DNA of 64,000 nt from Sphingobacteriia bacterium (GTDB lineage Bacteria > Bacteroidota > Bacteroidia > Bacteroidales > UBA7960). The notes under the pieces were generated by a model, which had not been told where the DNA came from, made no database searches, and worked only from the letters and a program-made list of their open reading frames with translations. Positions within the stretch are counted from its first letter, which is position 1, and each line of letters begins with the position of its first letter. Shown here in pieces: positions 4,171 through 48,331 of this stretch. Location of the stretch: NCBI GenBank assembly GCA_011390785.1, contig JAABRR010000019.1, positions 1 to 64,000 of the forward strand. The letters are read 5' to 3'. Made by a program: the position numbers and the translations under genes.

Positions 4171-4214
4171 CAGTTTATAATTTTGTTGTTTAAGCATCAC
4201 TTTTTGCAAAGGTG

Positions 4215-4236
4215 GTCCTTACTCCCCCTTTGAAGG
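4215..4236. repeat. Fragment of a dispersed GC-rich intergenic repeat
   Basis: The 16 bases GTCCTTACTCCCCCTT recur in reverse complement at about 13646-13671, inside a larger palindromic element. Here only one arm remains, between panE and the hydrolase gene, so this looks like a decayed copy. Confidence 0.5.
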
Positions 4237-5453: not shown

Positions 5454-7142
5454 ATGAACCGCAACCCTCACCGGTACCTAATAATGCAGGTTTTCCTAAT
5501 TACCTGCCTGCAGGGTATTGTGTTCGGCCAGCAGCTCGACAACCTTTCCGGTCAGAAACCCTTTCAACTACGAGGCAACTTTTCCACCAACCTTATCGGT
5601 TACGGCGCATCGGGCATCGAAAACCGGCTTACCCCATTTGCTTTTATGGTTTCGGCCAATGCCACCGCTTCCGTGTATGGTATCTCCATGCCTTTTTCAG
5701 TTCGGTATAGCAACCAGCAGGTGAATTACACCCAACCCTTCAATCAGTTCGGCATCAGCCCGTCTTACAAATGGGCCAGGGCACATATTGGCTACCGTAG
5801 CGTAAACTACAGCAATTTTACCATGGCAGGACATAGCTTTCTTGGTGGTGGGCTGGAACTGAATCCGGGCCTTTTCAGGTTTGGATTTGTTTATGGCCGG
5901 TTCAAAAAGAGCGCCGTGGCTTTTGAACAGGCCATCGACACAACCCAAACCCTTACCCGCAAAGGATATGGTGCCAAAATAGGGGTTGGCTCGGAGAAAA
6001 ATTACGTTGATTTGATTTTTCTGCGAATCCGCGACGATAGCACCACTGTTTTGCAACCACAATCCCAATCCTTTAGCCCGGCAGAAGAAAACGCTGTGGC
6101 AGGCATCAATACACGCATTACCTTTTCGCACGCACTATATTTTGAAAGCGAAGTTGCTGCCAGCATTTATACTACCGATATTTCGGCTCCTGGTTTTGAT
6201 GTTGATGATTCCAGTCCTTTGCTGCAGAAAGCTACTAGCGTGATGAATGTCAACCAGTCGTCAGAACTGCTCACCGCCATGCGCGCATCACTCAACTTCC
6301 GGGCAAAGGCTTTTTCCACACGGTTGGAATACCGGCGCATCGATCCGGGTTACCGTTCTATGGGGGCCTATTTTATGAGCAGCGACATTGAAAACTTCAC
6401 CATTGCCCCTTCTTTTTCTCTTTTTAACCGCAAACTCAACCTGCGTGGAAGCATTGGTTTGCAGCGCGACAACCTGCGAAATGCCAAACGGGCCACATCC
6501 TTACGCACCATTTCTTCGGCGCAGGTATCATGGAATCCGGCACCGGTATTCGGCATTGACCTCAGCTACAGCAACTATAGCAGCAACCAGCGGGCCGGCA
6601 GGGTGCCACTGATCGATTCTCTGAAATTTTTTCAAACCAACAGCAACATTACCATAGCACCCCGATTGCTTTTTACCGGGCCACAATTCAATCATATGGT
6701 CATGGCCGTTTTTAGCAGAATGGAACTTTTCGACAAGAACATCAACACCAAAATATTTACAGAAAACCAGGCTACGATGGCCAATATAAACTACAGCCTG
6801 AGCATTCTGGAACACCAGGCAACCCTTTCGGCAGGCTTCAACTACAACAAACTGGAAAATTTTGCCGGCGCCCAAAGTGCAGGAGGATTTACCCTTGGCG
6901 CCCGGAAAAACTTTCTGGATGGCAAACTCAATCTGGGCATCAACAATTCCAGCATCCGTATGGAGTACCCGCAGGGTGTTGGCTGGACTCTCAATACTTC
7001 GGTGAATACAGGTTACCGGATCACCAGAAAACATGCATTAAGATTCAATTTGTATTACATCCGTTCTGATTATCCTGAGGGGATGCTATCCAACGATTTT
7101 AACGAAATAAAAGGAGATATGAGTTATGTGTACACATTCTGA
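5454..7142 (+). CDS. Predicted outer-membrane beta-barrel protein, first gene of the TANFOR-like cassette
   Basis: No named family recognised. The first 26 residues are a signal peptide ending in a likely cleavage site near VFGQQ. The rest is a run of alternating polar/hydrophobic strands such as PSYKWARAHIGYRS and AKIGVGSEKNYVDLIFL, with turns rich in Asn, Gly and Asp. The protein ends in Phe with aromatic alternation (SYVYTF), the form of a BAM-recognised barrel C-terminus. At 562 residues it could form a barrel of 20 or more strands. Its last 17 bases overlap the start of the 2069-residue gene in another frame, which implies translational coupling. I infer an outer-membrane anchor or export pore for the downstream surface protein; this is not proven. 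Confidence 0.7.
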   Translation: MNRNPHRYLIMQVFLITCLQGIVFGQQLDNLSGQKPFQLRGNFSTNLIGYGASGIENRLTPFAFMVSANATASVYGISMPFSVRYSNQQVNYTQPFNQFGISPSYKWARAHIGYRSVNYSNFTMAGHSFLGGGLELNPGLFRFGFVYGRFKKSAVAFEQAIDTTQTLTRKGYGAKIGVGSEKNYVDLIFLRIRDDSTTVLQPQSQSFSPAEENAVAGINTRITFSHALYFESEVAASIYTTDISAPGFDVDDSSPLLQKATSVMNVNQSSELLTAMRASLNFRAKAFSTRLEYRRIDPGYRSMGAYFMSSDIENFTIAPSFSLFNRKLNLRGSIGLQRDNLRNAKRATSLRTISSAQVSWNPAPVFGIDLSYSNYSSNQRAGRVPLIDSLKFFQTNSNITIAPRLLFTGPQFNHMVMAVFSRMELFDKNINTKIFTENQATMANINYSLSILEHQATLSAGFNYNKLENFAGAQSAGGFTLGARKNFLDGKLNLGINNSSIRMEYPQGVGWTLNTSVNTGYRITRKHALRFNLYYIRSDYPEGMLSNDFNEIKGDMSYVYTF

Positions 7143-10100
7143 AAAGGCTCAGCGCAACCAAGCCAGTCGTATAGCCCTGGCCACAACTGCCTTTGTTATG
7201 GCAATGCTTCTCTCATTAGCAGGCATGGCACAATTTGCCCCTGTGCGGGTAAATATTGCTGTAACGCCACCTTACTCCACCAAACTTTCGGACTATACCA
7301 ACAACCCCAACAAAGTGCTGGTTACGCTGCAAAACTTCAGCATGGATGGAACTACACTCAGGGTTTATCTCAGGGGCGAGATAACCGGGGCCAGTGGAAG
7401 CAGAATTTTCACCCACCCCAACCACCGGCCTGCCCAGCCCATCGTTTTACAACCCGGCACCACATTTATGCTTAATATAAACAATATCCAGGATGTTTTT
7501 GATGGAAACTCAGTGGTCTATGAAGGAGTCTCGCAGCAAGATATACTCTATGGCAATGGCCTTCCCGAAGACGATTATATTATTTGCCTTACCGCATACG
7601 ACTATGACACAGATATGGTGTTGTCTGACGAGCCACCTTTTGGTTGTTCGGTTCCTTTTTCCATCACCAACCTGGAAGCCCCGGTGGTTATGCAGCCCTT
7701 TTGTCATGAGCACATTACTCCTTTGGTTCCGCAAAACGTGGTCATTTCATGGACCATGCCGGCCGGCGCACCACCCATGGTACGATATAAAATCAGGATG
7801 GTTGAAGTATCACCGGATGAACACGACATCAATGATGCAATGTTTTCTCAACCTTCCTTTTTTGAAACCGAAGTTACCGGCAATGTTTTCTTATATGGCC
7901 CTGCACAACCTTCACTGGTAGAAGGGAAAACCTATGCCTTTATGATTACTGCGGTTGATCCCATGGGGCAACTGGTATTCCGAAATGGGGGGCGCAGCGA
8001 AGTATGCAGCTTTACCTGGGCTACCTTTGAAAATGTGATTTCGGATGCGATGATTCCTACTCCGGTAGTATCCACACTACCAGATGATTTTGAAATGGCT
8101 CCCACCACCACCATCAGTGGTAAAATGATGGTAAAATACCCCACCAGTCCATACGAACCCATCGACCTGGGAAGCATACCTGATTTCAATACTCCGATTT
8201 CCATGCCTGACCAAACCATTAACATTGACGGAATGATAGGATCGGGTTCTGACAATGACCCTGGTTCGGGTATAGGAAATTTTACTTCGAATCTTATTGT
8301 TAGCTATGACGGCGTCAGCTACATGGGCAACGAAATTTCAGGAAACATAAACAATCATAGCGTTGGCTACCCATTTTTAATTCCCGACCCCGAAGATCAG
8401 GCTGTTCATGGTGATTTATTCGGTATGGGGTGGCCATTACTGGCAAAGATGAACGCCCAAAAATACATCTTCCACGAAAGTGAAAACATGATCTATACCA
8501 AGCCTTTGCCCAATACCCGCGTAAGACTGATAGCACGTTTGGGAATAATCAACAATCCCGATGCATTTGGGATTCAACATGGAGAATATGGCGGGGTGAA
8601 TCCTCTTACAGAAGGAATTGACCTTAAAGGGAAATTTCAGGGTGATGCCAACAAATATGTAAATGTTGTGCTGGATGACACATACACCGATGAAAACGGA
8701 GATTATACCTTTTCTTTCAGCCTTCCATTCTGGACCGGGCCAATTATTACAACAGGTATACAGCATGCTCCTCCGGCCACTGCCGACCAAAATCCGCTGG
8801 GAGATATTTTTGGTGCGGTGGTATTTCCCGGGGTTGATCTTCAAAATGTAACCAGCGCAATGCCTGGCATGCCCATGGGTAGTGTAAATGTTGGCGGGGC
8901 TTTAACAGGTATACCTGGTGGAAATGCCAATGCCGGCGGCCATCAGGTAATGAGTATGAGCGGAGCTATCATTTCCGAATCCGAATTTGGCTATCTGTGC
9001 CTGAAAATTGAAGTGGTGAACCAGAAATTTTGCAGCCCTGATATCGATATATTTGCCATGCCAGGCGATAACCTGCAAATCCCGCCACAAGCGGCAAAAC
9101 TCAAAACCTACAATCTTACTGTGGAAGTAAAATCTGATTCAACGTCCAGTCAGATGAACCCGCCCCTGAGCCCCATGAAAGGGGTTAAAGTGCAGATACT
9201 CAGAAAATGGAACCAGATTCAGAACGAAGTCCCCCTTATCATCGATTATGAAGGGCACCAACTGGGAACCAAAATGGTTTCATCGAATGGTGAGTTCCTG
9301 AATGTTGCCACCGATACAACAGGAACAGCGGGAGTGGTAAGGTTTGAAAACCTGGTAAGGCATGGCTACATCACACCCCAATACCTTATAGATCTGTCGG
9401 TTCGGAATTTTGATGCCGTTGATACCACCTACGACCTGAGTTTTTATAATTACCAGAGCATTTTTGTTGAAGTCCCTACCAGCACAGATAATATTGCCTT
9501 TCAGACCTTTGAAGGCAGGGTGATTTACAACCATCAGTACAGTAGTCCTGCTGAAATTGTTACTCAATATAAGATGAAACCACTTCCGCCGGAAATTAAA
9601 GGCAGGGTGATGGCATCATCAGATCTGGAAAACATTGGCATGCCCGATGTAAATGTTTCCCTGCTGAATCAAACAAACAACACCCGCCTGTATACCTATA
9701 GTGCCTTTCTTAATCAATGCTATTCCAATACAGAGAGTTTTACCAAAACCAATTCTTCGGGGTTTTTCAGATTTACCAACCTTCCGGTTCGCGATAATAA
9801 TGAAAACCCTGTTTACAGAAGAATACTGGTGCGTCCTAAACTTCACCTGCAGGAGATCAGGCCACGGATTGGCCCACCTGACGAGGATGCAAGATTACCC
9901 AGACTCCTGCGGATGGGAGAACTGGTCGAGATGTTTATCAACCTGAGACCCATCTCCATGATGCCCGGCTTTGTTGAAGATGAAGATGGTGAACCGGTGG
10001 CTGCCTACGTTAAATCAGCCCATTCGCCCTATTACAAAACGGAGAAAGTAATTACCACTATCAATCCCATCAATCCGGCCCAAAGTGAGTTTCAGGAACA

Positions 10101-13100
10101 ATTTGCTGTACCCGCCGACCCCCAGGCAGGAGTAACAGTAAGCGTTGAACCCCTTTCAAGCATGTATTTTCCGGCCGATACCAGCTTTTTACCACCAGGC
10201 AACAGGGTAAGAATCAGGGTTTACAAAAGATTGCACCGACCAGCCATACTGGTCAGAAATGAGCTTAATCAGCCCATTGCAGGAGCGGTGGTGAATATTG
10301 GCGGGCACATCGATACAACCGATGCTTCGGGCAGAGTATGGATGAAGTTTGCTGCGGCGGCTGATCAGTTTGTTCTGCGCATTACACCCCCAGCCGGCTA
10401 TGCACCCCTTCAGGAACCCGTTAACATACCCGTTTCTCCCGGCTGGAAACATCTTACCTATGCCCTAAACAGCGGAAAAAGCATAAGGGGAACTGTTACA
10501 GAGCAACAAAGCAATGCCCCGGTTGAGGGAGCACGGGTATTTGCCGAGCTGGTAAGTACTGATGGATTACCACTGTATATTGAAGCCATTACAAACACAC
10601 AAGGTGGATACTTTTTGAACGGCATTCCCCGAAACCTGAACCAGATCAATATCCAGGTGGTGAAAGAAGGTAGCAATCCAAGTTATGTGGGAACTACCCG
10701 CACCATCACCTTTCCGGCACAGATATCTAATCTACCCCCTACCCATAATTTTACCCTGCAACGCATGGACGACTGGGATCTGTCGCAAATATGGGGCTTC
10801 CCCATCGTGGTTACATCGCTCAGCAGCAGATTTTTACCCGGTACAACCACCATGGGCACCTTCCTGAGTGGCTATTTTGTGAACCCACCCACAGCCGGTG
10901 ATTTTACGAACATGCGGGATGATATGAAAATTCCGTTCCGAGGCATCAGAATCAACAAAGGGAGCAACAACAGGCCCGAGCCGGTTGATGAAACCATTTC
11001 TGTTGATGTTCTTGAAATACCTGTTATTGCAAGCCAGCATTATACCGGACACTTGTACAATTATGTGCAACCCCCAGCCGGCAATACCATGATCAATCTA
11101 TTCGGATTTAATAAGAAGAAACTGGAAATGGATAAGATAACCTTCGGAACCGGAGGGGCACGGATACGCGGGCAGGTAAGGCTCGATCTGGCCAGCTTTG
11201 AGATTGTTAATCAGTTCAGCGGTATCCTCTACATTGGCAGCGACACAATTACCGGCAAAGCCACCGTTTTCACATCTTCACTTACCAGCCAGTTTTCTAC
11301 CGGTTATAATGTCTTCAGTCTTAACAACAGCTTACAGCCGGTTCCGGTAAGAAATTACAAGGTATTCAATTTCAACGCATCTGCCGATCTTTCTCATTCT
11401 ACCTTAAATAATGGGACAATCCGTCTGCGTACTATACTGCATACCAACCTGCCTGGCGGTGGTCTCAACAATAACCTCGACCTGAAAATACGGGCCGGCG
11501 ACCTGGTGATCAACAACACAGATATCAGGTTTCAGGATTCTCCCGGTGGCCAACTCAGCTTTGATCTGGACAAGTGGAAAGTAACATCCACCAAACCCTG
11601 GCGTTTCGATATCAACGAAGATGCTATTGTTTTGGAAGAAGTTCTGATCAATACGGGTAGCGGTGTTAATGCCATTGTTAAAAACATGAAAGTAAGACCA
11701 GGCGAGCTCAGAGAAGGACAGATAAGCCTTTCGGGTGGTTTTACCCTGGGTGGCGTAGCCCCTGTTGAGCTGCCACCCGGTGCAGAACCCATTTTTAACT
11801 TTGATGAAGGAACCGGAAACTACAGCATCAGCATCATTGGCAACAATAATTTACCGGCAGGTACGGTTCGCAATCTGCAACATACGAATCCAAATAGTTT
11901 TGTGCTCGAGTCTATCAGTATGCTCAGCAACAATACAGAAGTTATTTCCCTTGATCAACCCATGAAATTCTACAATATTCTGGATATGGAAGTGGGTGAG
12001 TTAATGTCAGGACCGGGATTCTTTGCCCTGAAAGGAGTACCCATCATCAACATTCCGGGCTACGACCCACCCAGTGCCATTGTGCGCTATGAAAGGATAA
12101 ACAACCGCATTATGCCAACAGTGGAACCCCTTATAGGCACTGTGTTTGCCCACGGAAATGTAGAGTTTGAGCTGGCCCAAACCGAAAATCGGCAGAAAAC
12201 AACAGACCAAAAGTTTACTTCCTACGGAAGGATAAAGATCAATCCTGCTGCCGACGATCCTGCAGGCCAACCTGTTTATTTCACCGGTTTTCTTACCAAA
12301 ACCCCTACATCCTGTAATGTTGAGATCATAAAAATCAATAGCAATGATTTTATCGGCAATACCATGCAGCTCATGCCCGCCGGCAGCAACCAGTTGCCTG
12401 TTGAAACTGGATTTATGCATGTGGCCGGCAACAGCTGGAAGCCCTTATCCTATACCTGCCTTACCAACACCGTAGAAGGGATGAATGAGTCAGGAAGCGA
12501 CGAAAACCGACTCGTTTTCACTGTGGATGGAGCTATAACAGCAGTATCTGAAGACGACATCAGTGTAACGGGTATAGACACTCCATTGGGAGATATGAAT
12601 CTGACCTACAATTTCACCCAAGGAAGCCTGGTAGGAAACCTTAATGTAAAGAATCTTTCTTTGGGCTATGCCACCATTTACGAAGGAGGCGCCACACTCC
12701 GAATGGACAAAAAAGGTTTTTACATGCTTCTGGATATGCATGACTATGCTCTGGGCATTGTCAATGGTTTTAAAGGAGGTATGCTTGTTGGATCAACAAA
12801 TGGCGTTGAGAAAAGCGACCTCTATCATGTGCGCTCAAATTTCCGCTACGACTTACCATCCTTTGAAAGCGGCTTTACCGGTATATATATCATCGGAGAA
12901 AAGGAAGTGGCAAAAGAGAACCTCAATCTTATTGTAATGGAATTTAACGCAGACCTGGGCCTGGGAATGAGTGTGAATCTTAATTTTCAAAACCAAACGG
13001 AAATAAAGGTAGCCGGCTATTCCTATTGCGATCTTTTTAACCGCACATCTTACGGAATACCGGTTACCGGCCCCGATTGTGGCATTTGGGTGGATGCTAA

Positions 13101-13335
13101 ACTGTATTCGTTTTTAACTGCTGAATATGTGGGAGGCAACTATGGGTTAAATGCTTGCGGCTCATTAAATTTTGGGTGCGGATTTGATGGTGTTTGCGGT
13201 TATGTGCTGGATGAAATCGGTCTGTCGCATTACATGGACGTAATTACCAACCAGATCAACATGAGAATTGATGCCGGTTACAACAGTGGATCAGGATTTA
13301 GCGTAGGTGTAAAGCCCTTTTTAACCTGCGATTGA
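7126..13335 (+). CDS. Giant TANFOR-domain-like surface protein (2069 aa)
   Basis: A very long exported protein. A signal peptide (hydrophobic run around VMAMLLSLAGMAQ) leads into an N-terminal region of about 250 residues that resembles the Bacteroidota TANFOR domain: PPYSTKLSDY near residue 50, a Cys/Pro-rich middle with LPEDDYIICLTAYDY, then ISWTMP, the ETEVTGNVFLYGPAQPSL stretch and YAFMITAVDP. Three carboxypeptidase-regulatory-like Ig modules follow near residues 820, 1040 and 1115 (for instance IRGTVTEQQSNAPVEGARVF). Residues about 1330-1960 are regular beta-strand sequence. The last 105 residues carry six cysteines. No T9SS C-terminal sorting domain is visible, so the export route is unclear. 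It is coupled to the barrel gene upstream and followed by a fibronectin-III-like protein. The TANFOR call is from recollection of the family pattern and needs a profile search. Confidence 0.7.
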   Translation: MCTHSEKAQRNQASRIALATTAFVMAMLLSLAGMAQFAPVRVNIAVTPPYSTKLSDYTNNPNKVLVTLQNFSMDGTTLRVYLRGEITGASGSRIFTHPNHRPAQPIVLQPGTTFMLNINNIQDVFDGNSVVYEGVSQQDILYGNGLPEDDYIICLTAYDYDTDMVLSDEPPFGCSVPFSITNLEAPVVMQPFCHEHITPLVPQNVVISWTMPAGAPPMVRYKIRMVEVSPDEHDINDAMFSQPSFFETEVTGNVFLYGPAQPSLVEGKTYAFMITAVDPMGQLVFRNGGRSEVCSFTWATFENVISDAMIPTPVVSTLPDDFEMAPTTTISGKMMVKYPTSPYEPIDLGSIPDFNTPISMPDQTINIDGMIGSGSDNDPGSGIGNFTSNLIVSYDGVSYMGNEISGNINNHSVGYPFLIPDPEDQAVHGDLFGMGWPLLAKMNAQKYIFHESENMIYTKPLPNTRVRLIARLGIINNPDAFGIQHGEYGGVNPLTEGIDLKGKFQGDANKYVNVVLDDTYTDENGDYTFSFSLPFWTGPIITTGIQHAPPATADQNPLGDIFGAVVFPGVDLQNVTSAMPGMPMGSVNVGGALTGIPGGNANAGGHQVMSMSGAIISESEFGYLCLKIEVVNQKFCSPDIDIFAMPGDNLQIPPQAAKLKTYNLTVEVKSDSTSSQMNPPLSPMKGVKVQILRKWNQIQNEVPLIIDYEGHQLGTKMVSSNGEFLNVATDTTGTAGVVRFENLVRHGYITPQYLIDLSVRNFDAVDTTYDLSFYNYQSIFVEVPTSTDNIAFQTFEGRVIYNHQYSSPAEIVTQYKMKPLPPEIKGRVMASSDLENIGMPDVNVSLLNQTNNTRLYTYSAFLNQCYSNTESFTKTNSSGFFRFTNLPVRDNNENPVYRRILVRPKLHLQEIRPRIGPPDEDARLPRLLRMGELVEMFINLRPISMMPGFVEDEDGEPVAAYVKSAHSPYYKTEKVITTINPINPAQSEFQEQFAVPADPQAGVTVSVEPLSSMYFPADTSFLPPGNRVRIRVYKRLHRPAILVRNELNQPIAGAVVNIGGHIDTTDASGRVWMKFAAAADQFVLRITPPAGYAPLQEPVNIPVSPGWKHLTYALNSGKSIRGTVTEQQSNAPVEGARVFAELVSTDGLPLYIEAITNTQGGYFLNGIPRNLNQINIQVVKEGSNPSYVGTTRTITFPAQISNLPPTHNFTLQRMDDWDLSQIWGFPIVVTSLSSRFLPGTTTMGTFLSGYFVNPPTAGDFTNMRDDMKIPFRGIRINKGSNNRPEPVDETISVDVLEIPVIASQHYTGHLYNYVQPPAGNTMINLFGFNKKKLEMDKITFGTGGARIRGQVRLDLASFEIVNQFSGILYIGSDTITGKATVFTSSLTSQFSTGYNVFSLNNSLQPVPVRNYKVFNFNASADLSHSTLNNGTIRLRTILHTNLPGGGLNNNLDLKIRAGDLVINNTDIRFQDSPGGQLSFDLDKWKVTSTKPWRFDINEDAIVLEEVLINTGSGVNAIVKNMKVRPGELREGQISLSGGFTLGGVAPVELPPGAEPIFNFDEGTGNYSISIIGNNNLPAGTVRNLQHTNPNSFVLESISMLSNNTEVISLDQPMKFYNILDMEVGELMSGPGFFALKGVPIINIPGYDPPSAIVRYERINNRIMPTVEPLIGTVFAHGNVEFELAQTENRQKTTDQKFTSYGRIKINPAADDPAGQPVYFTGFLTKTPTSCNVEIIKINSNDFIGNTMQLMPAGSNQLPVETGFMHVAGNSWKPLSYTCLTNTVEGMNESGSDENRLVFTVDGAITAVSEDDISVTGIDTPLGDMNLTYNFTQGSLVGNLNVKNLSLGYATIYEGGATLRMDKKGFYMLLDMHDYALGIVNGFKGGMLVGSTNGVEKSDLYHVRSNFRYDLPSFESGFTGIYIIGEKEVAKENLNLIVMEFNADLGLGMSVNLNFQNQTEIKVAGYSYCDLFNRTSYGIPVTGPDCGIWVDAKLYSFLTAEYVGGNYGLNACGSLNFGCGFDGVCGYVLDEIGLSHYMDVITNQINMRIDAGYNSGSGFSVGVKPFLTCD

Positions 13336-13740
13336 GAAAAATGAAGTCCGAAGTCCGAAGCCAGAAGACCGAAGCCAGAAGATGTGCCTTGCACCCCGTG
13401 ACTGTTCATTAATCAAAGAACCATTATGAGTATATGCAATTGAACTGTAAAAAAAGCCGAGTCACGGGGCGACTATTAATAAAAAAGTTGATTTGAATAA
13501 AAAAAGTAAAATGTATTGTTCTTTGCCGAAATATTAGCAGTTACCGATTCCCCCTTTTGAAGGGGGCTAGGGCGATGTTTTAGATTGTACGGATCGTAGA
13601 AGACATCCCCCCTGCCCCGTTGGCTTCGCCGAACCCTAAAGGGTTTCGAAGGGGGAGTAAGGACTCCCTTTAAAAAAAGTAATTCTTAAATAACAAACTT
13701 GTACAGCATTGAATAATAACAAAATAAAAACCATAACCCA
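13336..13740. repeat. Gene-free 405-bp spacer made of several repeat types
   Basis: Directly after the stop is a run of 7-8-base degenerate units of the type GAAGTCC/GAAGCCA (13341-13382). CCCCGTGACT (13394-13403) is complementary to AGTCACGGGG (13460-13469). Then a GC-rich palindromic element (about 13549-13671) has arms containing CCCCCTTTTGAAGGGGG and TTTCGAAGGGGGAGTAAGGA. One arm of this element recurs near 4215. It resembles the short intergenic repeats common in Bacteroidota genomes. No gene or clear promoter was seen. Confidence 0.6.
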
Positions 13741-15246
13741 ATGAAAACGCAACTACTAATCATCGCACTTGCACTCACACCATTGCTTTCACAGGCCCAG
13801 CAGATCAAAGGCTACCAAAGCAGCAGCGAAAGCAATATGCCATCAGTAACCTGGATGGCCACGGAATTAACCGATACACTAGCATACGAAGTGCTCAGGG
13901 CACCCCATGGTTCCGAAAGATTTGAACCCATTGCCACACTTACCAATCGATACTATACTGGTGATACGCTGTTTTTCATCATGACAGATACCACACTCAC
14001 CGAAAAAGGAATCTGGCAATACCTCATCAGAATCAATACCCCGGAGGGAAGAACCCTGAATTCGGAACTGATGATGGCCCACAACCTGGGCTATATTCCC
14101 CCGCCACGGATTGTGAATTTCAGAACATCGCCCGCACCCGGCCAAAAAGCCATTTCCCTTAACTGGGAACTCCGCAACCCCGAAACAGTAGTTAACCTGG
14201 CCATATATAAAAGCTACCGGTTTGATGATGGTTATGAATTGGTAACCACTTTGCCTTCAACAGCCCGGGATTACACCGACCCGGTTGCGCGCGCCAACGA
14301 ACCCTGGTTTTACTTTATTCTGATCCAGGATTATTTCGGATACCAGCCCCCCAGTGTCAGGGTACATGGAGTTACCGATTATGCCGGGCAACCCATTCCA
14401 CCCCAGAACTTTTCAGCAACAAGAACCGATAATTATATCAGCTTTACGTGGAGAAAAGTAGGCGATGATATATTCAATTACCGGTTGTACCGCCGAACCA
14501 ACCAGACAGGCAGGTTCTTCCCTGTAGGAGATCCCTTTTTTATCCCTGGAAGACACATCAGTTTCAGGGACTCTCTGGAAATAACAGACAATATTACCCA
14601 TCTCGAGTACTATGCCACATCTTTGAGCGACGGTTACGTAGAAAGCAATCCGGGTGATACCGTGCTGTTATTCTTTCCTGAAAATGAAGCAGTACCACCA
14701 CCATCAGTATTGGATCATATTGCCGATGCTTCCGGAAACATTACTTTGCTATGGACTGCCATAGAAAGCGGGGCGGTATCAGGGTACAATATTTACCGCA
14801 AAACAGAAGATAGCCCTTTCGAAAAGTTAAACCAGGAACTTCTGCCCGTAAACACCTACCGGGACAATACCCTTACAACATCCGGAAATATAGTATATCA
14901 GGTAGAAACTGTTAACCGTGGCGGAAAACCCTCGCACCTGCGCACTGAAACTACTGTTGTGTTTCAACCGCAGCAGATAAAACTGGTGGTTTCTTGCATA
15001 CAAACAAGAAACGGGCTTCAGCTTCAGTGGGTTCCTTTAGAAACCGCCGGTATTGAAAAGCTGCAAATTTACCGGCAAAAAAATGAAGAAGACCCCATTC
15101 TGTTAACCACCGTTGAAAATAGCAGAGGAACTTACACAGATACCCAAACCGAAAACGAAACTTCATACATATACACCTTTATGGCAGCCATGAAAGATGG
15201 ACGCACAGTAATGGTAAATGACGGCGTAATAATAAATAAAAATTAA
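13741..15246 (+). CDS. Secreted protein with fibronectin type III-like repeats, third gene of the TANFOR-like cassette
   Basis: The N-terminal MKTQLLIIALALTPLLSQAQ is a clear signal peptide. The mature part divides into about five modules of 90-100 residues that look like fibronectin III domains. Recurring cues are 'W-[+]-x(n)-Y-x-[IL]-Y-[RK]' strands: VNLAIYKSYR, FNYRLYRRTN, SGYNIYRKTE and IEKLQIYRQK, followed by 'Y-x-D' turns (TARDYTD, NTYRDN, GTYTDTQ). Modules start near residues 25, 122, 220, 325 and 415. There is no T9SS sorting domain at the end. It lies 405 bases after the giant gene, behind a repeat-filled spacer, so it may have its own promoter. A scaffold or adhesive partner of the giant protein is an inference from position only. 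Confidence 0.7.
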   Translation: MKTQLLIIALALTPLLSQAQQIKGYQSSSESNMPSVTWMATELTDTLAYEVLRAPHGSERFEPIATLTNRYYTGDTLFFIMTDTTLTEKGIWQYLIRINTPEGRTLNSELMMAHNLGYIPPPRIVNFRTSPAPGQKAISLNWELRNPETVVNLAIYKSYRFDDGYELVTTLPSTARDYTDPVARANEPWFYFILIQDYFGYQPPSVRVHGVTDYAGQPIPPQNFSATRTDNYISFTWRKVGDDIFNYRLYRRTNQTGRFFPVGDPFFIPGRHISFRDSLEITDNITHLEYYATSLSDGYVESNPGDTVLLFFPENEAVPPPSVLDHIADASGNITLLWTAIESGAVSGYNIYRKTEDSPFEKLNQELLPVNTYRDNTLTTSGNIVYQVETVNRGGKPSHLRTETTVVFQPQQIKLVVSCIQTRNGLQLQWVPLETAGIEKLQIYRQKNEEDPILLTTVENSRGTYTDTQTENETSYIYTFMAAMKDGRTVMVNDGVIINKN

Positions 15247-41399: not shown

Positions 41400-42617
41400 T
41401 TATTGTGCTGCAAGGGCGTCAAAATCGAATGTCAGGGAAAACCGAAGAACATTTTCAAGCGGACTTCTTTGCATTACGGGAATTATATAGGAAAAATCTA
41501 GCCCAAATACATTGTACTTCAACCCTAAACCGAGGGTAAAAAACTTACGATTACCTTTGGTTTGATGTTCATGAAAATACCCGCCCCTAATGGCAAACTG
41601 ATTATCGTACCAATATTCAATACCGGTTGATAAGGTAAATTCGTTAAGTTCTTCACTAAATCCATTGGGAGCATCAGAGAATGATCCAAAAATACCAGCA
41701 ACTACGGGCCTGTTAGGATCTTTCCCACTCAAAATGCGATAATTACCGTCATCATCAATAAGTGGGGCATTGCTTATAGAGTCTCTTGCATAAATTGGAG
41801 GAGTAGGTACAAGTAATTTATTTACATCAATACTGAACGCCATTGTATTATATTCGTCAAGTTGCAGGGTAAGAGTAGGGCCAAAACGAAGATTAATAGG
41901 AATAAAATTTGAATTGATATCGTCGGAGTAAGAAATCTTTCCACCAATATTAGAAATATTGAACCCTGCAGCAAATGAAGCAGGAGTTCTTCTCCAGTCC
42001 AATTCCCTTTCATAGTAGGCTGAAACATCTGCGGCAAGGGTCCTTCCAGGCCGGGTAGGAGTTGTACCCACATTTTGTCCCTGGGTAAGGTTTGAATTGA
42101 TATATCGTATGGCAATACCCCCTGAAATATTTTCGCCAAGTTTTCTGGCATATGCCACATCTAAAGCAAATTCACTGGGTCTGTAAGTACCCTGCGACGT
42201 ACCTGCTTCATCAGTAAACTGGATTTCGCCGAGAGAGAAAAAAACCAAAGATGCAGCCACAGTTTGCATTTCATCAATTCTTTTAAAACCACTCAAATAG
42301 GAAAGATTAATATCATTAACCAAAGTTCTCAACCATGGTGTATAGTTAAGAGCCATACCCATATCTTTGTCTATAAAAGCAAATTTAGCCGGATTCCAGT
42401 GAAGCGAATTTGCATCTGGAGAAGTTGATACTCCAATATCACCCATTGCACCCGAACGGGCATCAGGAGCTATCATAAGAAAAGGTACTGCCGTAGTTAT
42501 TGTATTTACCTGCTGGCCCAATACATCACCATAGTCCTGTGAATAAACCTTTACATTTAAAAGCATAACTACTGTGAGAGACAATCCTGCCAAACTCTTT
42601 AAAATCAATTTTATCAT
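41400..42617 (-). CDS. porV: Type IX secretion system outer-membrane protein PorV (LptO)
   Basis: Outer-membrane shuttle that collects T9SS cargo and delivers it to the PorU sortase. It has a signal peptide (LAGLSLTVVMLLNVKVYSQ). Then comes VPFLMIAPDARSGAMGDIGV and SPDANSLHWNPAKFAF, the conserved opening of PorV in the FadL-like barrel group, and many short barrel strands to the end (YNVFGLDFSYIIPV, VLRFSLTFDF). 405 residues is usual. It is transcribed after, and 386 bases from, porU in the same direction. Confidence 0.93.
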   Translation of the reverse strand: MIKLILKSLAGLSLTVVMLLNVKVYSQDYGDVLGQQVNTITTAVPFLMIAPDARSGAMGDIGVSTSPDANSLHWNPAKFAFIDKDMGMALNYTPWLRTLVNDINLSYLSGFKRIDEMQTVAASLVFFSLGEIQFTDEAGTSQGTYRPSEFALDVAYARKLGENISGGIAIRYINSNLTQGQNVGTTPTRPGRTLAADVSAYYERELDWRRTPASFAAGFNISNIGGKISYSDDINSNFIPINLRFGPTLTLQLDEYNTMAFSIDVNKLLVPTPPIYARDSISNAPLIDDDGNYRILSGKDPNRPVVAGIFGSFSDAPNGFSEELNEFTLSTGIEYWYDNQFAIRGGYFHEHQTKGNRKFFTLGLGLKYNVFGLDFSYIIPVMQRSPLENVLRFSLTFDFDALAAQ

Positions 42618-43003
42618 TGTTATTTGAAGTTTTATAATCTGTTCTATAAGAAACTGTCGGATTTTTTAAGTTTTAATTTATACCCACCTGATTTTGAACC
42701 GCAAACCTACAGCTTTTTTTACAATTACGATCAAAAAAAATTAAGCAGATCAGATTTTTAAATCCTTTAAAACATTGTTTACAATTAGATTAAGCTTTTT
42801 GTTTAAACATTTTTATTAACAAATAAAATACCCAAAGCCGTTTAAAAAACTTTTATCGAAAGCTGGTAATATTCCTAAACGCTCTTTTAACAGGGTTATT
42901 GCATCAACAGCATTCTTGCCATTTTATAGAGTTATTAATAATGTAACAAGAAATATTATACTCAATTACTACAATAAAACAGGCAAAATCCCGGATATTC
43001 AAT
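42618..43003. other. porU-porV spacer with a porV promoter candidate
   Basis: 386 AT-rich bases without a gene. On the minus strand TAGGTTTG (42709-42702) fits the -7 consensus, with TTTG 22 bases further upstream, so porV may be transcribed separately from porU. Nothing else is seen. Confidence 0.45.
42702..42709 (-). promoter_or_regulatory. Putative porV -7 element
   Basis: TAGGTTTG on the minus strand, about 85 bases before the porV ATG; exact TAnnTTTG match. Confidence 0.4.
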
Positions 43004-46000
43004 TTATCTTAATATAAGTAGTTTTTCTGTTTTCTGAACCTGCTCACCATCTGCTGTGCTCACTCTTGCTCTAAACATGTAGATCCCATTATCAAGCAAT
43101 GTTCCTCCATCATCTCTACCATCCCATTCAATTGGTGGCACGTTAAAACCTGAAGCATAAACATTTTCATCAATTGATTTAACCAGCTGTCCATTCATAC
43201 TATAAATCTCTATGGCAATGCGCAATTCGGTTGCCGGCTTATTATGCCCTATTGAAAACCGGGTATATTCAGCAAATGGATTGGGAACATTGAGCAATTC
43301 GGTAAGCTCTAATCCAATTCCGGACGTTACAACAAATTCTATATTTTCGCTATTAACGTTATTATGAACATCCCAGGCCCTTAAAGTAAGATTATAAACT
43401 CCCTTTTCTAAATTAAAAAAGGGAAACACAACCCTTCCTGACTGATAAGAATCAATGTCAGACTGATAATAATTATTTACTAAAAATGGATTAGAAAGAT
43501 CATTATTAAGAAAAACGACAATATCATGCCCTATCTGGCCTGTTGTATTTATACCAGATTCATCAGCAAGAAAAGCAAGTAAAACCGGACTGGGTCCGGT
43601 TTTATCACCTGAGATAAAATCGTGGTTATCCATAAAGAGTGATATATTCGGGCCAGAAGAATCCGGAGAATACTCAGAAGATGTACCCGTAACAACTATA
43701 TTATCGTAATACCCACAACCATCGTGCAAATGCCCATCATCAAAATAATAACTAATCTTGGCATTTCCCGAGTTATAGCTAATATCCCGTGGAACAATAA
43801 ATGAAAACTCAAAAACGCCATTTTCAACCGACGCAGCTCCGCGGTAAATAATGCGGTTCTGCATACTAAACTCTTGTTGTGAACTTCTCGAATCATTGGC
43901 AAGGGTTGAAAAAACTGTCTTTTTATCATAAACAGTAGGATAAATCACACCATTATAATCTGCTGCAAATAATCCTTCGGGTGTATATATTTCACCTTTA
44001 ATTGTAACATGTTCAAGGGCTTTTATAGTATCGGGAACACTGGTAGTTACTGCATTATATTTAGGATAAGCCATTTGCATGGAAGGGTCTCCCAAAAGGA
44101 CAAAATTTTTAAGGGTGGTAGCTGAACTACTTTCTACCTTAGATATCCTGATCAAATCACCCAGTCGGGGCATTTCTCCATTTTCCATGGGTTTAAATGC
44201 ATTTTGCATAAATGCATCGTTAAGCGTGAAATTACTATGTGAATAGGCAAGGCGTGTAGTTGTAAATAATGCCGCTGCTCCTCCATCGGGTTTAAGAAAT
44301 ATTCTTACCCCTGCAGATAACTCGTTGGCATCGGGTTGATCAAAACTACTAAATTCGCATGTAGCAGTCATAAATACCGGAAGATTGTAATAATTTCCCC
44401 AGGACAGAATGTCGTCAAAAGTGAGAATTCTTTCATGCGCCAAACCGAGAGTACCACCATGGCCAATGTAATTAATCAGCAAGGCTCCCTGATTTACTTT
44501 ATTATTAATAGCTGTATTAACATCAGGATATCTTGATCCGCCTGCAAGAATGGTTTGTTCATAAGCATCAAGGTATATTTTTTCCACATTAAAAACAGGA
44601 TGTTCGTTGGCCATAAGAGAGGCTATCTGCTCAGACTGATTAAAATGAACATTTGAGTCTTCATCATCTGCTATAAGGGTAATAATATTTCTCCAATCAG
44701 CATAATTAGGAATAACCCCAGCAAAACGGGGATCATCACTTCCTGGCACCAAACCATCAATCCGCTGGTTGTATCGCAACAATTTATCAACCACAAACCT
44801 GGCTTCGTCAACTGACCTTACTGGTAAACGACCAATCCCAAGATCAATGGCTCCCTGAACATCCAACCCCTCACTATGGTCGAGTAACCCAAAAAAGTCA
44901 TCAGAGATATAACTGGATGCCGGACTCAATGATTGCTGAGTTTGGAAGGTAGGAATCAGATTTCCTCCATAACCTAATAAATCTTTATTATCATAAGTTC
45001 CGTTACCAAACAACAATAGATATTTGGGATAATCGCCTGTTTCAGATGCCTGATCGTAAAACATTTTCATAAAATTTCTGATAGCTGCAATATCAGGAGT
45101 CCCGGAAGAAAATTCATTATATATCTGTTGCGGAGAGACCAGGCTCACACTTAAATTATCAAAATTACGTCTGAATTCAGCCAATCGTTCTGCTTGTGCT
45201 TTAAAAATATCCGGTACTACAATGATTAGATCATGAACTGACATTCCATGCAAATTCTGATTTGGGACACTGCCGGCAAGACGCGGTTTAAGGAAATCAG
45301 CATTCGTGAAAACAACAAATTCTCTATGTTTATCTGTAGCAACAATAAAGGAACCACTGGCCCCGTTGGTTTGAAATTGTTGAATAGTAACATTCTCAGG
45401 CACAGTAACATCCCAAACAATATGATTTGAGCTTATTCCATCCAAGTCAAACTTTGTTTTATGATTTGTTCCGGTTACAGATGGATTCCGGAAAAACATC
45501 TGATTACCAGTCATTATTAGATTTCTTCGGGCATTTACAGTAATAAAATTTAACCACCCCTGAGCTCCTGAGGCAGTTCGGTTGTAGGATAAAGCTACCT
45601 GAATATTTTCACCCTGAGGCAAAACTGTTATTGACCCAACGGTATGTCGGGCAAATATCCCTGTTGAATTGGCAATATTGACCCCGGCAATGGTAAGATT
45701 ATTAGATTGTTCTAAAGCCTGCAAATTAAAAGAACTGGTAACAGAAGATCTAGATGCAACATAAGCATTGATATGAACAGGTTCCTGCCTGATATTCGCG
45801 AAGGAGAACTCAAAACTCCTGTTTAGAGTTACATCAAACAATTCTCCAAACCATGTTTTTCCGCTACCCAATAAATTAACCAGGTCCCTTTCATGATGCT
45901 GATAATCATAAAAAGAACCAACAGTATGTGTGGGATTTTCAGTCAGGCTGTTTCTCATTTCAATGCGGACACCGGGCTCTCTGCCGTAAGTTAGAAAGTA

Positions 46001-46855
46001 ACATTTCTCAGCAGAATATAAATGTTGTGAGTATTCGTACAAATCTTTTTCGGAGTTGTAATCCCATCTGTTGGGCGATTGTCCGTAGAAAAGAATATAA
46101 TCATCATTCCCAAAAACACCGTTATTATTTCCACTTACAAAAATAGCGTGTTCATACAAGTCTGTTTGCCCTGTTTCAGAATTTAACTCAGGCAACATTC
46201 CGGCCTTATTTCCGAAAAGCTGCAGGGTTGACTTTTGTATCTGCGATATATTAATCCCCATAGATTCCAGATCCTGCCTGTTTATCCGGTAGACCCCTTC
46301 TTTATCAACACAAATTCGAAACCAGTTGCCAGAAGATAGAACTGAGTTTTCAGGGTAAAACTTCGACTCTTCCTGTTTTAATGAAGAATTAAAAGTAAGA
46401 CCCGGTTTCAAAGAAAATGAAACAAGCTTCTCATAAATTCCATCCCTTTTTCTAACAGGTACAATCTCATAGCGAGCAAACTTTTCTGCTTTGGAAGTTT
46501 CAAAAGTATTATAAACCACAAAATCTTCTGCATGAAACCCGGATTTACTCAAAATATCTGCTTCGACTGGCGAGCACACCTCAACTTTGGTTTCTAACAG
46601 TTGAAACTGATAAGAGAAATGAGGCACAGTAAGTTTTTTGCGATATACGAATTTTGGAACCTGCGGCATGCTATCAGGAAATACTGCTCCTTTAAAATAC
46701 AAAGATGGAAGAAATAGGCTCTGGGAATCACTTTCCAAAACAGGAACTTCCCAATGCAAATTAAATGAAAGGGGGGGGTCTTCTATGCCATAAGATGTTT
46801 TTAAAACACCCAAATAGATGATAAGAATAAAAATACCACTATAATAACGCTTCAT
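43004..46855 (-). CDS. porU: Type IX secretion system sortase PorU
   Basis: Surface-exposed cysteine peptidase of the gingipain (C25) family that removes T9SS C-terminal signals and attaches cargo to A-LPS. A signal sequence comes first, then a long beta-rich region. The C25 domain has LLINYIGHGGTLG (catalytic His near residue 799) and PVFMTATCEFSSFDQP (catalytic Cys near 832). The last 95 residues form a T9SS-type sorting domain themselves: VPNPFAEYTRFSI, IEIYSMNGQLVKSI, then WDGRDDGGTLLDNGIYMFRA and EKLLILR at the end. Its 1283 residues are typical. The next gene in transcription order is porV. Confidence 0.95.
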   Translation of the reverse strand: MKRYYSGIFILIIYLGVLKTSYGIEDPPLSFNLHWEVPVLESDSQSLFLPSLYFKGAVFPDSMPQVPKFVYRKKLTVPHFSYQFQLLETKVEVCSPVEADILSKSGFHAEDFVVYNTFETSKAEKFARYEIVPVRKRDGIYEKLVSFSLKPGLTFNSSLKQEESKFYPENSVLSSGNWFRICVDKEGVYRINRQDLESMGINISQIQKSTLQLFGNKAGMLPELNSETGQTDLYEHAIFVSGNNNGVFGNDDYILFYGQSPNRWDYNSEKDLYEYSQHLYSAEKCYFLTYGREPGVRIEMRNSLTENPTHTVGSFYDYQHHERDLVNLLGSGKTWFGELFDVTLNRSFEFSFANIRQEPVHINAYVASRSSVTSSFNLQALEQSNNLTIAGVNIANSTGIFARHTVGSITVLPQGENIQVALSYNRTASGAQGWLNFITVNARRNLIMTGNQMFFRNPSVTGTNHKTKFDLDGISSNHIVWDVTVPENVTIQQFQTNGASGSFIVATDKHREFVVFTNADFLKPRLAGSVPNQNLHGMSVHDLIIVVPDIFKAQAERLAEFRRNFDNLSVSLVSPQQIYNEFSSGTPDIAAIRNFMKMFYDQASETGDYPKYLLLFGNGTYDNKDLLGYGGNLIPTFQTQQSLSPASSYISDDFFGLLDHSEGLDVQGAIDLGIGRLPVRSVDEARFVVDKLLRYNQRIDGLVPGSDDPRFAGVIPNYADWRNIITLIADDEDSNVHFNQSEQIASLMANEHPVFNVEKIYLDAYEQTILAGGSRYPDVNTAINNKVNQGALLINYIGHGGTLGLAHERILTFDDILSWGNYYNLPVFMTATCEFSSFDQPDANELSAGVRIFLKPDGGAAALFTTTRLAYSHSNFTLNDAFMQNAFKPMENGEMPRLGDLIRISKVESSSATTLKNFVLLGDPSMQMAYPKYNAVTTSVPDTIKALEHVTIKGEIYTPEGLFAADYNGVIYPTVYDKKTVFSTLANDSRSSQQEFSMQNRIIYRGAASVENGVFEFSFIVPRDISYNSGNAKISYYFDDGHLHDGCGYYDNIVVTGTSSEYSPDSSGPNISLFMDNHDFISGDKTGPSPVLLAFLADESGINTTGQIGHDIVVFLNNDLSNPFLVNNYYQSDIDSYQSGRVVFPFFNLEKGVYNLTLRAWDVHNNVNSENIEFVVTSGIGLELTELLNVPNPFAEYTRFSIGHNKPATELRIAIEIYSMNGQLVKSIDENVYASGFNVPPIEWDGRDDGGTLLDNGIYMFRARVSTADGEQVQKTEKLLILR

Positions 46856-47270
46856 TCTTTATCAATTAAAAATTTATATTTGAAACAACATCAATAGACG
46901 TTTTAAAATTGTAATCCTTACACTTTATGTGGTTTTTTCATAACTGTTTATGAAATAAAAAGAACACATTATTAATAACGAATTACAATAAACAATATTT
47001 CAACATCTATGTCTTAAAATATCAACCATGCCAAAAGGTAATTTTTGGCGATCACTTTAAATTAGCATACCAAAACTCTGAGGATCTTTTAGAAAACTGC
47101 ATGATAAAAGCCTAAAAGAAGCAAAACTTTTCAAAGATATTTAGTTGTTTATTTTCTAAACAAAATTAATCACCCACTTTATCGTTTAGGTAAATATCAA
47201 AAATGATAGTTGAACCCAACAATCCTAAATCTAAAACAATTTTGGTATCATATCAAAATCAATAATTAAA
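46856..47270. other. Divergent spacer between porU and the porP/sprF-like gene
   Basis: 415 AT-rich bases with no supported gene. TATATTTG (46875-46882, plus strand) and TAATTTTG on the minus strand near 47159 are exact -7 matches but at poor distances. CAATTTTG at 47237-47244 is one base off and 27 bases before the ATG at 47271. Confidence 0.35.
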
Positions 47271-48299
47271 ATGGTGAAACCTGTTCTCAATATAGACGTA
47301 AAATCATTAAACTCATTTTGTGTCATGTTGTTTACATTCACCCTACTTATATTTGTTGTTTTAATTTCAGCCCGGAAGGTTTCTGCCCAAGATGCAATAT
47401 TTTCGCAACATTTTGCCAATCCACTTTATCTAAATCCTGCATTTACAGGCACAAATAATTGCAACCGTTTAATTTTCAACTACAGAAACCAACCATTCCC
47501 ACAATTTGGAAGTTTTTCTACTTATAGTTTTTCTGCTGATTATCATTCCGATTTTTTATCTGGAGGAATAGGATTAAATCTGTTACACGACACACAGGGT
47601 GGACTTATCGATCAAAGCCAGGTGGGTGCTTTCTATGCATGGCAAAGCCGGTTGTCTGACACATGGAATATAAGCCTTGGAATTCAGGTATCGTATATTA
47701 ATACCCGGCTTAACAGGCAAAATCTTATTTTCCCGGATCAAAATCCACAAAACAATAATACAATAAGCACCACGGGTGAAACGTTTAACCAACCAACCGG
47801 TAGCCATATAGCCGATTTTTCAACAGGATTGTTAATCTACAGTAACCGGTTTTACGCCGGTTTAGCATTAAATCATATTTCACAGCCGGAAGTAGAATTA
47901 TTTGAGAACAGTTTATTAGAAAGAAAGTATAGCCTAATGATAGGATATAACCTAATACCTGCTGAAAGAAATCATAGAAATTCAGAGAATATAAGTGTTT
48001 CACCTAATATCATAATACAGTCTCAATCAAGCTATTTACGCTTTAATTACGGATTATCGGCAGGTATAAATAGCATCATAGGCGGTGTATGGTTTCGCCA
48101 CAGTTATCAACACCCAAATACACTGATTTTTATGCTTGGGTTAAAACAGGTAAATTACACCATAGGGTATAGCTATGACTATTCATTATCAGGGTTTTCA
48201 GGAGTTGGTGGAGGCGCTCACGAGATAGGTGTTTTACTGAATTTTGCCTGCAGGGAGCCTGAGAGCAGGTATCGCATACTAAATTGTCCAACATTTTAA
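47271..48299 (+). CDS. PorP/SprF family T9SS membrane protein
   Basis: The N-terminal region holds a hydrophobic stretch (LFTFTLLIFVVLISARKVSAQ) with cleavage near SAQD. A PorP/SprF domain follows: DAIFSQHFANPLYLNPAFTG at residues 42-61, the LIFNYRNQPFPQFGSFSTYS stretch, HSDFLSGGIGLNLLHDTQGG, and strands to a C-terminal Phe (NCPTF). This is typical of integral outer-membrane barrels that hold SprB-like adhesins or help T9SS assembly. A second start at 47325 would shorten the N-terminus by 18 residues. It sits between porU and gldJ, where Flavobacterium johnsoniae has no such gene. Confidence 0.85.
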   Translation: MVKPVLNIDVKSLNSFCVMLFTFTLLIFVVLISARKVSAQDAIFSQHFANPLYLNPAFTGTNNCNRLIFNYRNQPFPQFGSFSTYSFSADYHSDFLSGGIGLNLLHDTQGGLIDQSQVGAFYAWQSRLSDTWNISLGIQVSYINTRLNRQNLIFPDQNPQNNNTISTTGETFNQPTGSHIADFSTGLLIYSNRFYAGLALNHISQPEVELFENSLLERKYSLMIGYNLIPAERNHRNSENISVSPNIIIQSQSSYLRFNYGLSAGINSIIGGVWFRHSYQHPNTLIFMLGLKQVNYTIGYSYDYSLSGFSGVGGGAHEIGVLLNFACREPESRYRILNCPTF

Positions 48300-48300
48300 T

Positions 48301-48308
48301 TATTTTTG
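48301..48308 (+). promoter_or_regulatory. Putative gldJ -7 element
   Basis: TATTTTTG, an exact TAnnTTTG match directly after the porP/sprF stop and 23 bases before the gldJ ATG. Confidence 0.4.
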
Positions 48309-48331
48309 TACAAATTTCAAATGAATAAATT

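Follow-up and report, generated by a model that had tools for sequence, protein, structure and literature searches.

Given that the gene of a predicted outer-membrane barrel overlaps that of a giant exported protein in a Sphingobacteriia bacterium (assembly GCA_011390785.1), the question arises whether the two products act together, and to what end. The stretch analyzed here, referred to as the window, comprises positions 1 to 64,000 of contig JAABRR010000019.1, and all coordinates are given within it. The cassette at 5454-15246 consists of three open reading frames (ORFs) on the forward strand, namely a barrel gene (5454-7142, 562 residues, C-terminus SYVYTF), the gene of a giant TANFOR-domain protein (7126-13335, 2069 residues), and that of an exported protein of the Fn3 (fibronectin type III) family (13741-15246, 501 residues). 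The barrel stop and the giant start lie within 17 bases common to both ORFs (7126-7142). A first-pass annotation, made from the letters alone, had proposed this cassette; the ORF list places all three frames where it had put them and confirms the overlap, and the barrel does end in the aromatic residue expected of a barrel assembly machinery (BAM)-type C-terminus. The exported or secreted character that it assigned rests on a hydrophobic N-terminal stretch. Comparison across genomes shows the cassette to be real, recurrent and partly new, adding to a known toxin class a barrel family linked to it, a partner of the Fn3 family and two cores that are apparently undescribed.

The TANFOR character of the giant was assessed with the family profile TIGR02542, which matches residues 41-180 (7246-7665, forward strand) at E 1.2e-11 with 44.8 bits, below the curated NCBI cut-off of 67. 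Other TANFOR proteins likewise remain below this cut-off, among them the AHH-bearing protein of locus L297 (39.7 bits) and that of L312 (31.6 bits). Our own profile of the TANFOR region (A2), whose alignment includes a row from the giant itself, matches 7177-8163 at E 1.4e-101, and the TANFOR profile gave only weak rows against the sequences of the PDB (best E 0.026). A CarboxypepD_reg domain (PF13620, E 6.6e-14 with the whole protein) is found at residues 1119-1188 (10480-10689, forward strand), the better of two stretches. It lies within a core, residues 960-2069 as used for profile building (10003-13332, forward strand), to or near the end of which homologues elsewhere align. The first-pass annotation had stated that the giant lacks a sorting domain of the type IX secretion system (T9SS), and this was borne out, with no type A or type B match in the whole protein at E up to 1 or in its last 400 residues at E up to 0.001. 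These last 400 residues also match no Pfam or NCBIfam family at E 0.001. The giant was thereby rejected both as a toxin with a known domain and, by sequence, as a substrate carrying a T9SS C-terminal domain (CTD); a toxin of a hitherto undescribed type at its C-terminus is possible.

The three genes recur together in other genomes. In a set of 79 genomes that included the window's own, the giant as query matched 14 genomes and the barrel and the Fn3-family protein 20 each, and the loci fetched from this set hold the three genes side by side in a number of genomes. The window's genome itself has a second cassette of the same order on a distant contig (L094), with a barrel of 567, a TANFOR protein of 1596 and an Fn3-family protein of 703 residues. 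Profile searches with the barrel and the TANFOR region were then applied to a class sample of 346 genomes, of which 111 and 105, respectively, were matched at E 0.001. We defined a strong barrel as a profile match with E < 1e-60 (67 barrels in 56 genomes) and a long TANFOR as an open frame of at least 450 residues with E < 1e-30. For the neighborhood counts, 110 barrel rows (to about E 1e-9, omitting weaker rows and second fragments) and 132 TANFOR rows from among the matches listed (omitting second fragments and most weak rows) were taken by hand. A TANFOR match lies within 10 kilobases (kb) of 51 of the 67 strong barrels, on the same strand in 50 and behind the barrel in 49, and fewer than 250 bases separate the two profile matches in 41 of the 67.

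The same association holds at the level of whole genomes. Some TANFOR gene is present in 55 of the 56 strong-barrel genomes and a long one in 52, and since 56 of the 346 genomes also hold a long TANFOR, the overlap of 52 corresponds to a Fisher p of 5e-52 with related genomes treated as independent. Sixteen long TANFORs have no barrel within 10 kb, and for 13 of them a barrel is encoded elsewhere in the genome (p 1.8e-8 against the background of 56 in 346, several of these genomes being of one genus); in at least two of the 13, the distant barrel adjoins another TANFOR. Thus the giant's homologues are not mostly found apart from the barrel, the outcome that would have spoken against the first-pass proposal. 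Across all fetched loci, which were chosen by a match to one part and include repeats (five named loci repeat unnamed ones), TANFOR is the next same-strand gene for 94 of 139 barrel ORFs, and in 54 of these 94 an Fn3-family gene comes next. The 17-base overlap recurs in six other loci (L075, L076, L178, L234, L294 and L299). The order of the trio permutes (barrel-TANFOR-Fn3, TANFOR-barrel-Fn3 and TANFOR-Fn3-barrel) while the three stay together, over many families, and the neighborhood is more than chance.

Two further associations were observed around the barrels. In ten loci, the barrel is preceded on its own strand by a gene (c1) whose product resembles a response regulator by eye. This gene adjoins the barrel in nine of them (L176, L184, L189, L190, L191, L202, L211, L216 and L221) and lies three genes before it in L075, and none stands there in the window. 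The class scan also contains a second, distant pairing, in which TANFOR-like proteins of about 375-390 residues are neighbored by weak barrel matches whose frames mostly span 700-900 residues (e.g., G165:C15, G297:C30 and G161:C10). A TANFOR-like match lies within 10 kb of 35 of the 43 weak barrels, some of which are fragments, and this pairing is possibly a parallel system.

The first-pass annotation had counted three parts; the module has more, as many loci have a core, about 1,500 residues long at most, that is fused to TANFOR or separate from it, and a giant with a T9SS CTD stands alongside in some. Clustering of the neighboring genes yielded a family (c2) that has its own gene between the barrel and the Fn3-family gene in L186, L188, L231 and L232 and that forms part of long TANFOR proteins in other loci. 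A scan with two peptide patterns derived from four c2 sequences, over one genome for each of 84,980 species, confirmed 228 stretches, of which 80 were kept; by title these belong mostly to Bacteroidota, Ignavibacteria, Kapabacteria and Chlorobiota, with one from Armatimonadetes. Separate c2 genes in the named loci mostly encode 1,450-1,560 residues. In the fused state, one and the same C-terminal extension is present in all 32 c2-TANFORs with a complete 3' end and more than 300 residues after the core (the profile comparison aligns positions 2-561 of 584), which leaves little room for a toxin end. The split state is seen in islands of Tenacibaculum, Aquimarina, Marivirga, Parachryseolinea and Ohtaekwangia, which hold, in this order, the barrel, TANFOR, usually one or more small genes, c2, the Fn3-family gene and a further large gene; of these loci, L297 is from Parachryseolinea silvisoli, L312 from Marivirga sericea and L304 from Ohtaekwangia koreensis. 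In the Parachryseolinea island, TANFOR has an AHH nuclease domain at its end, and the product of the final gene contains SprB repeats and a type A sorting domain of the T9SS. Five islands (L297, L301, L288, L304 and L290) also have a gene of about 304-324 residues before c2 or the barrel; the one scanned (L297) gave weak HEAT-like matches only.

The window giant carries a second type of core (P-type), with homologues in nine of 373 other genomes of the order, two of them weak or partial, and also in the TANFORs of further barrel loci. An Fn3-family gene follows the P-type giant in seven loci with data, and a barrel end precedes it in the three loci with enough flank. At E 1e-10, the TANFOR ORFs, fragments and repeats included, divide into 64 with c2, 18 with the P-type and 69 with neither core, and none matched both. 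With profile hidden Markov models, c2 went undetected in the giant of the window, and the hhalign result was weak before the P-type set was enlarged. With the enlarged set, hhalign aligns the two cores close to the C-terminus (P 4.8e-6, probability 86%; reversed, P 2.6e-5, 75%), over a stretch that in the giant corresponds to about residues 1821-1949 (12586-12972, forward strand). The two cores are likely to be distantly related, as judged from these alignments. No Pfam or NCBIfam family matched the single c2 core that was scanned, nor did the c2 profile recover any sequence from the PDB. The predicted structure of c2 is all beta, with a predicted local distance difference test score (pLDDT) of 84.6 and a predicted template modeling score (pTM) of 0.55. 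Against solved structures, Foldseek and VIA returned no interpretable match (template modeling scores of at most 0.18, or Z up to 14.3 with a root mean square deviation (rmsd) near 15). The barrel and c2 thus look like large undescribed protein families.

Toxin ends go with the core-less form, and the core-bearing form is without a known toxin domain. Of 71 core-bearing TANFORs, the window's included, none matches a Pfam family within its last 400 residues at E 0.001, nor is a T9SS type A or B CTD found there. Among 44 core-less TANFORs (at least 700 residues, 3' end present, neither core profile matched at E 1e-6), at most six have toxin-type Pfam matches under the same conditions: TNT in two, and ART, ADPrib_exo_Tox, Endonuclea_NS_2 and AHH in one each, two of these being possibly the same protein. 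Two of the 44 (L199 and L211) partly matched a smaller c2 profile.

Of 128 barrels, 45 have no core gene in their vicinity and four are repeats; the relationship between barrel and core was followed on a tree of the remaining 79. This tree was built by a quick method and has 15 forks open; its forks are in part unsupported, and some branches are long. The core type (P or c2) requires two changes on it, as against a mean of 15.5 in shuffles, none of 500 of which was as low, and all three core states require four. The window's barrel clusters with two other P-type barrels (support 96), and the second barrel of the same genome falls among the c2-type barrels. Since the barrel tree follows core type, barrel and giant appear to be inherited together.

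As to what the barrel might be, its AlphaFold2 model (pLDDT 88.3, pTM 0.79) has about 26 strands by our own count of DSSP elements, one being interrupted and one short. The first strand begins at residue 37, with only 36 residues before it, and the model contains neither a plug nor a POTRA domain; neither barrel nor giant has a POTRA-type Pfam match at E 1. The best match among solved structures is MtrB (6r2q_B; Foldseek E 3e-12, Z 20.4, rmsd 4.8 over 447 aligned residues). The next-best fold match has Z 18.8 across 277 residues, and those after MtrB are porins and TonB receptors. Large barrels look alike generally, and a common fold is no proof of function. In sequence, the barrel has no curated family above cut-off in Pfam or NCBIfam, so it is not recognized as a known, unrelated porin; weak sub-threshold matches are to the TorF-type porin family TIGR02001 (E 0.0065) and OMP_b-brl_2 (E 0.011), and its profile matches no PDB chain sequence at E 1. 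PorP/SprF was rejected as an identity, as TIGR03519 gives no match at E 1, with the window's own PorP as positive control (204.3 bits). A TonB receptor was rejected for the model's lack of a plug, and a haem conduit because CxxCH, sought in the three window proteins, does not occur in the cassette. A wide barrel without a plug of its own makes a partner protein plausible, as far as the model can tell.

The third protein had been called fibronectin-III-like in the first-pass annotation, a name that holds indirectly: the window protein itself (501 residues) has no Pfam match at E 1, and of three homologues scanned, those of L082 and L186 match PF00041 and that of L094 matches nothing. A homologue of this gene adjoins barrel and TANFOR in G030, G051 and others.

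Taking these observations together, we put at about even the chance that a widespread outer-membrane platform anchors or exports TANFOR proteins and that the cassette is one of its units. All three proteins would probably leave the cytoplasm via Sec, to judge from their N-termini, and the wide, plug-less barrel would insert into the outer membrane. From the periplasm, the giant may then dock to the barrel by its N-terminal TANFOR region, and the remainder might be passed through or held by the barrel, with the beta-rich core outside. The Fn3-family protein, the third recurring part, may form a cap or a bridge for barrel and giant. In the split form, seen in some related genomes, a gene of its own encodes the core in the same slot, and TANFOR is a separate product, sometimes bearing a toxin end and followed by a small gene. 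As the core is separable from TANFOR in related genomes, the TANFOR region may be an adaptor to a common platform. The window holds the toxin-less, fused form, for which a surface structure is a likelier product than a weapon in its own right. A stronger version can be tentatively proposed, although we regard it as rather doubtful, in which the wide, plug-less barrel, the Fn3-family protein and a giant beta core form a dedicated machine for both secretion and display at the outer membrane. Its final step would be apart from the T9SS, it would recognize cargo through an N-terminal TANFOR adaptor, and what it delivers would be surface structures in the fused form, as here, or antibacterial toxins in the split form.

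The principal competing explanation, which we hold to be possible but hardly probable, is that the giant is a T9SS substrate with an unrecognized signal and that the barrel is only its surface anchor, in the manner of PorP/SprF. The genome has a T9SS, as the first-pass annotation had stated: SprA is above cut-off on another contig, and PorV, PorU, a PorP/SprF protein and GldJ are recognized by family matches within 41400-49816 of the window. Moreover, some relatives encode type A CTD proteins next to the platform (five were scanned, those of L192, L206, L297, L304 and L290). TANFOR proteins have been described as polymorphic toxins for which T9SS export is proposed (Jana, Salomon and Bosis, 2020; PMC7073777), and PorP/SprF barrels, which are PorV-like, offer a precedent, being proposed to anchor type B substrates at the surface (PMC10202324); statements from these two papers, and from a third cited below, refer to the portions of them considered here. 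This explanation is at odds with the absence of a CTD from the window giant and from the 71 core-bearing ends, and with a barrel of about 26 strands that escapes a profile by which the window's PorP is readily recognized. The platform reading has its own difficulties. SprA is above cut-off in all 56 strong-barrel genomes, so the T9SS could perform the export. No TANFOR lies within 10 kb of 16 of the 67 strong barrels, and long TANFORs occur in four genomes that lack a strong barrel, the reverse being true of four others. The barrel profile, derived partly from loci fetched around TANFOR or Fn3 matches, carries a mild bias, and the sampled genomes are related. The hhalign link between the window core and c2 is weak, and most core-less TANFOR ends have no known domain. 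Adjacency of the barrel and TANFOR genes is no proof of contact: the parts, their linkage and the two states of the core are observed, and interaction, export and surface location are proposals from gene context.

It is also conceivable, if unlikely, that the cassette is a plain surface scaffold or adhesin with the barrel as its structural foot, the toxin link existing only in other branches. The window giant fits such a role in having no known toxin end, a C-terminal region common to its homologues and a CarboxypepD_reg domain. The same barrel and Fn3 families, however, stand beside core-less TANFORs, one of them AHH-ended, and a single mechanism is more economical. Very improbable, in our judgment, is that the barrel is a porin or a nutrient or electron channel and a mere genomic neighbor. 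Its fold is like that of large barrels (MtrB, then porins and TonB receptors) and the sub-threshold matches to TIGR02001 and OMP_b-brl_2 point the same way, but its tight co-occurrence and adjacency with TANFOR, the absence of CxxCH from the three proteins, of a TonB-type plug from the model and of any porin family above cut-off argue against it. The platform reading thus retains what the first-pass annotation had proposed, a functional module with the barrel as the giant's partner, to the extent that the recurring neighborhood, the 52 common genomes and the lack of a porin family support it. Its further suggestion of an undescribed system holds in part: the linked barrel family and the two cores are apparently undescribed, whereas TANFOR toxins with Fn3-bearing and T9SS-substrate neighbors have been published (PMC7073777). 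The near-coincidence of barrel and long-TANFOR genomes, together with the fused and separate states of the core, names the genes and the barrel-TANFOR contact of interest.

Other features surround the cassette in the window. The giant and the Fn3-family gene, which abut in many relatives, are here separated by a 405-base spacer with a dispersed repeat (13336-13740, no strand assigned), which is perhaps an insertion. Various parts of this spacer have 24 further matches in the same genome, some at overlapping places, and one of these is at 4176-4234 of the window. There is no candidate immunity gene directly behind the giant, where the next genes are that of the Fn3-family protein and then MetA. 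On the reverse strand at 210-2339, a gene encodes a 709-residue protein with a tyrosine-recombinase match at residues 431-691 plus a second stretch, a length that is unusual for an integrase.

Among known systems, type Vb two-partner secretion pairs a barrel with a large exported partner that has an N-terminal recognition region. The cassette shares the logic of a barrel plus a large exported partner and differs in that its barrel has no POTRA domain, with 36 residues before the first strand and no such Pfam match. MtrB of the MtrCAB complex (PDB 6r2q), which sheathes a partner protein inside (PMC7198977), is a 26-strand barrel and the best structural match, the cassette barrel being a model and not a solved structure; unlike it, the cassette contains no CxxCH, and the barrel profile finds no PDB sequence at E 1. 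PorP/SprF barrels with their type B CTD substrates (PMC10202324) likewise present an outer-membrane barrel gene beside the gene of a giant surface protein, from which the cassette is set apart by a barrel of about 26 strands with no TIGR03519 match and a giant without a CTD. The closest likeness is to the TANFOR toxins (PMC7073777), near which Fn3 domains, SprB repeats and T9SS sorting domains are enriched and with which the window giant shares an N-terminal TANFOR domain, probable export, an Fn3 neighbor and a genome with a T9SS; it differs in that neither a known toxin end nor an immediately following candidate immunity gene is present. The main text of that paper contains neither the word barrel nor the word porin, the supplements being outside this check. 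Among the literature matches listed, there was neither an account linking TANFOR to a barrel, which is weak evidence as many journals and all preprints were outside coverage, nor a later paper on how TANFOR proteins cross the outer membrane. That crossing was left open in the portion of PMC7073777 considered here, where the T9SS is only proposed, and the link to a barrel family now makes the question testable.

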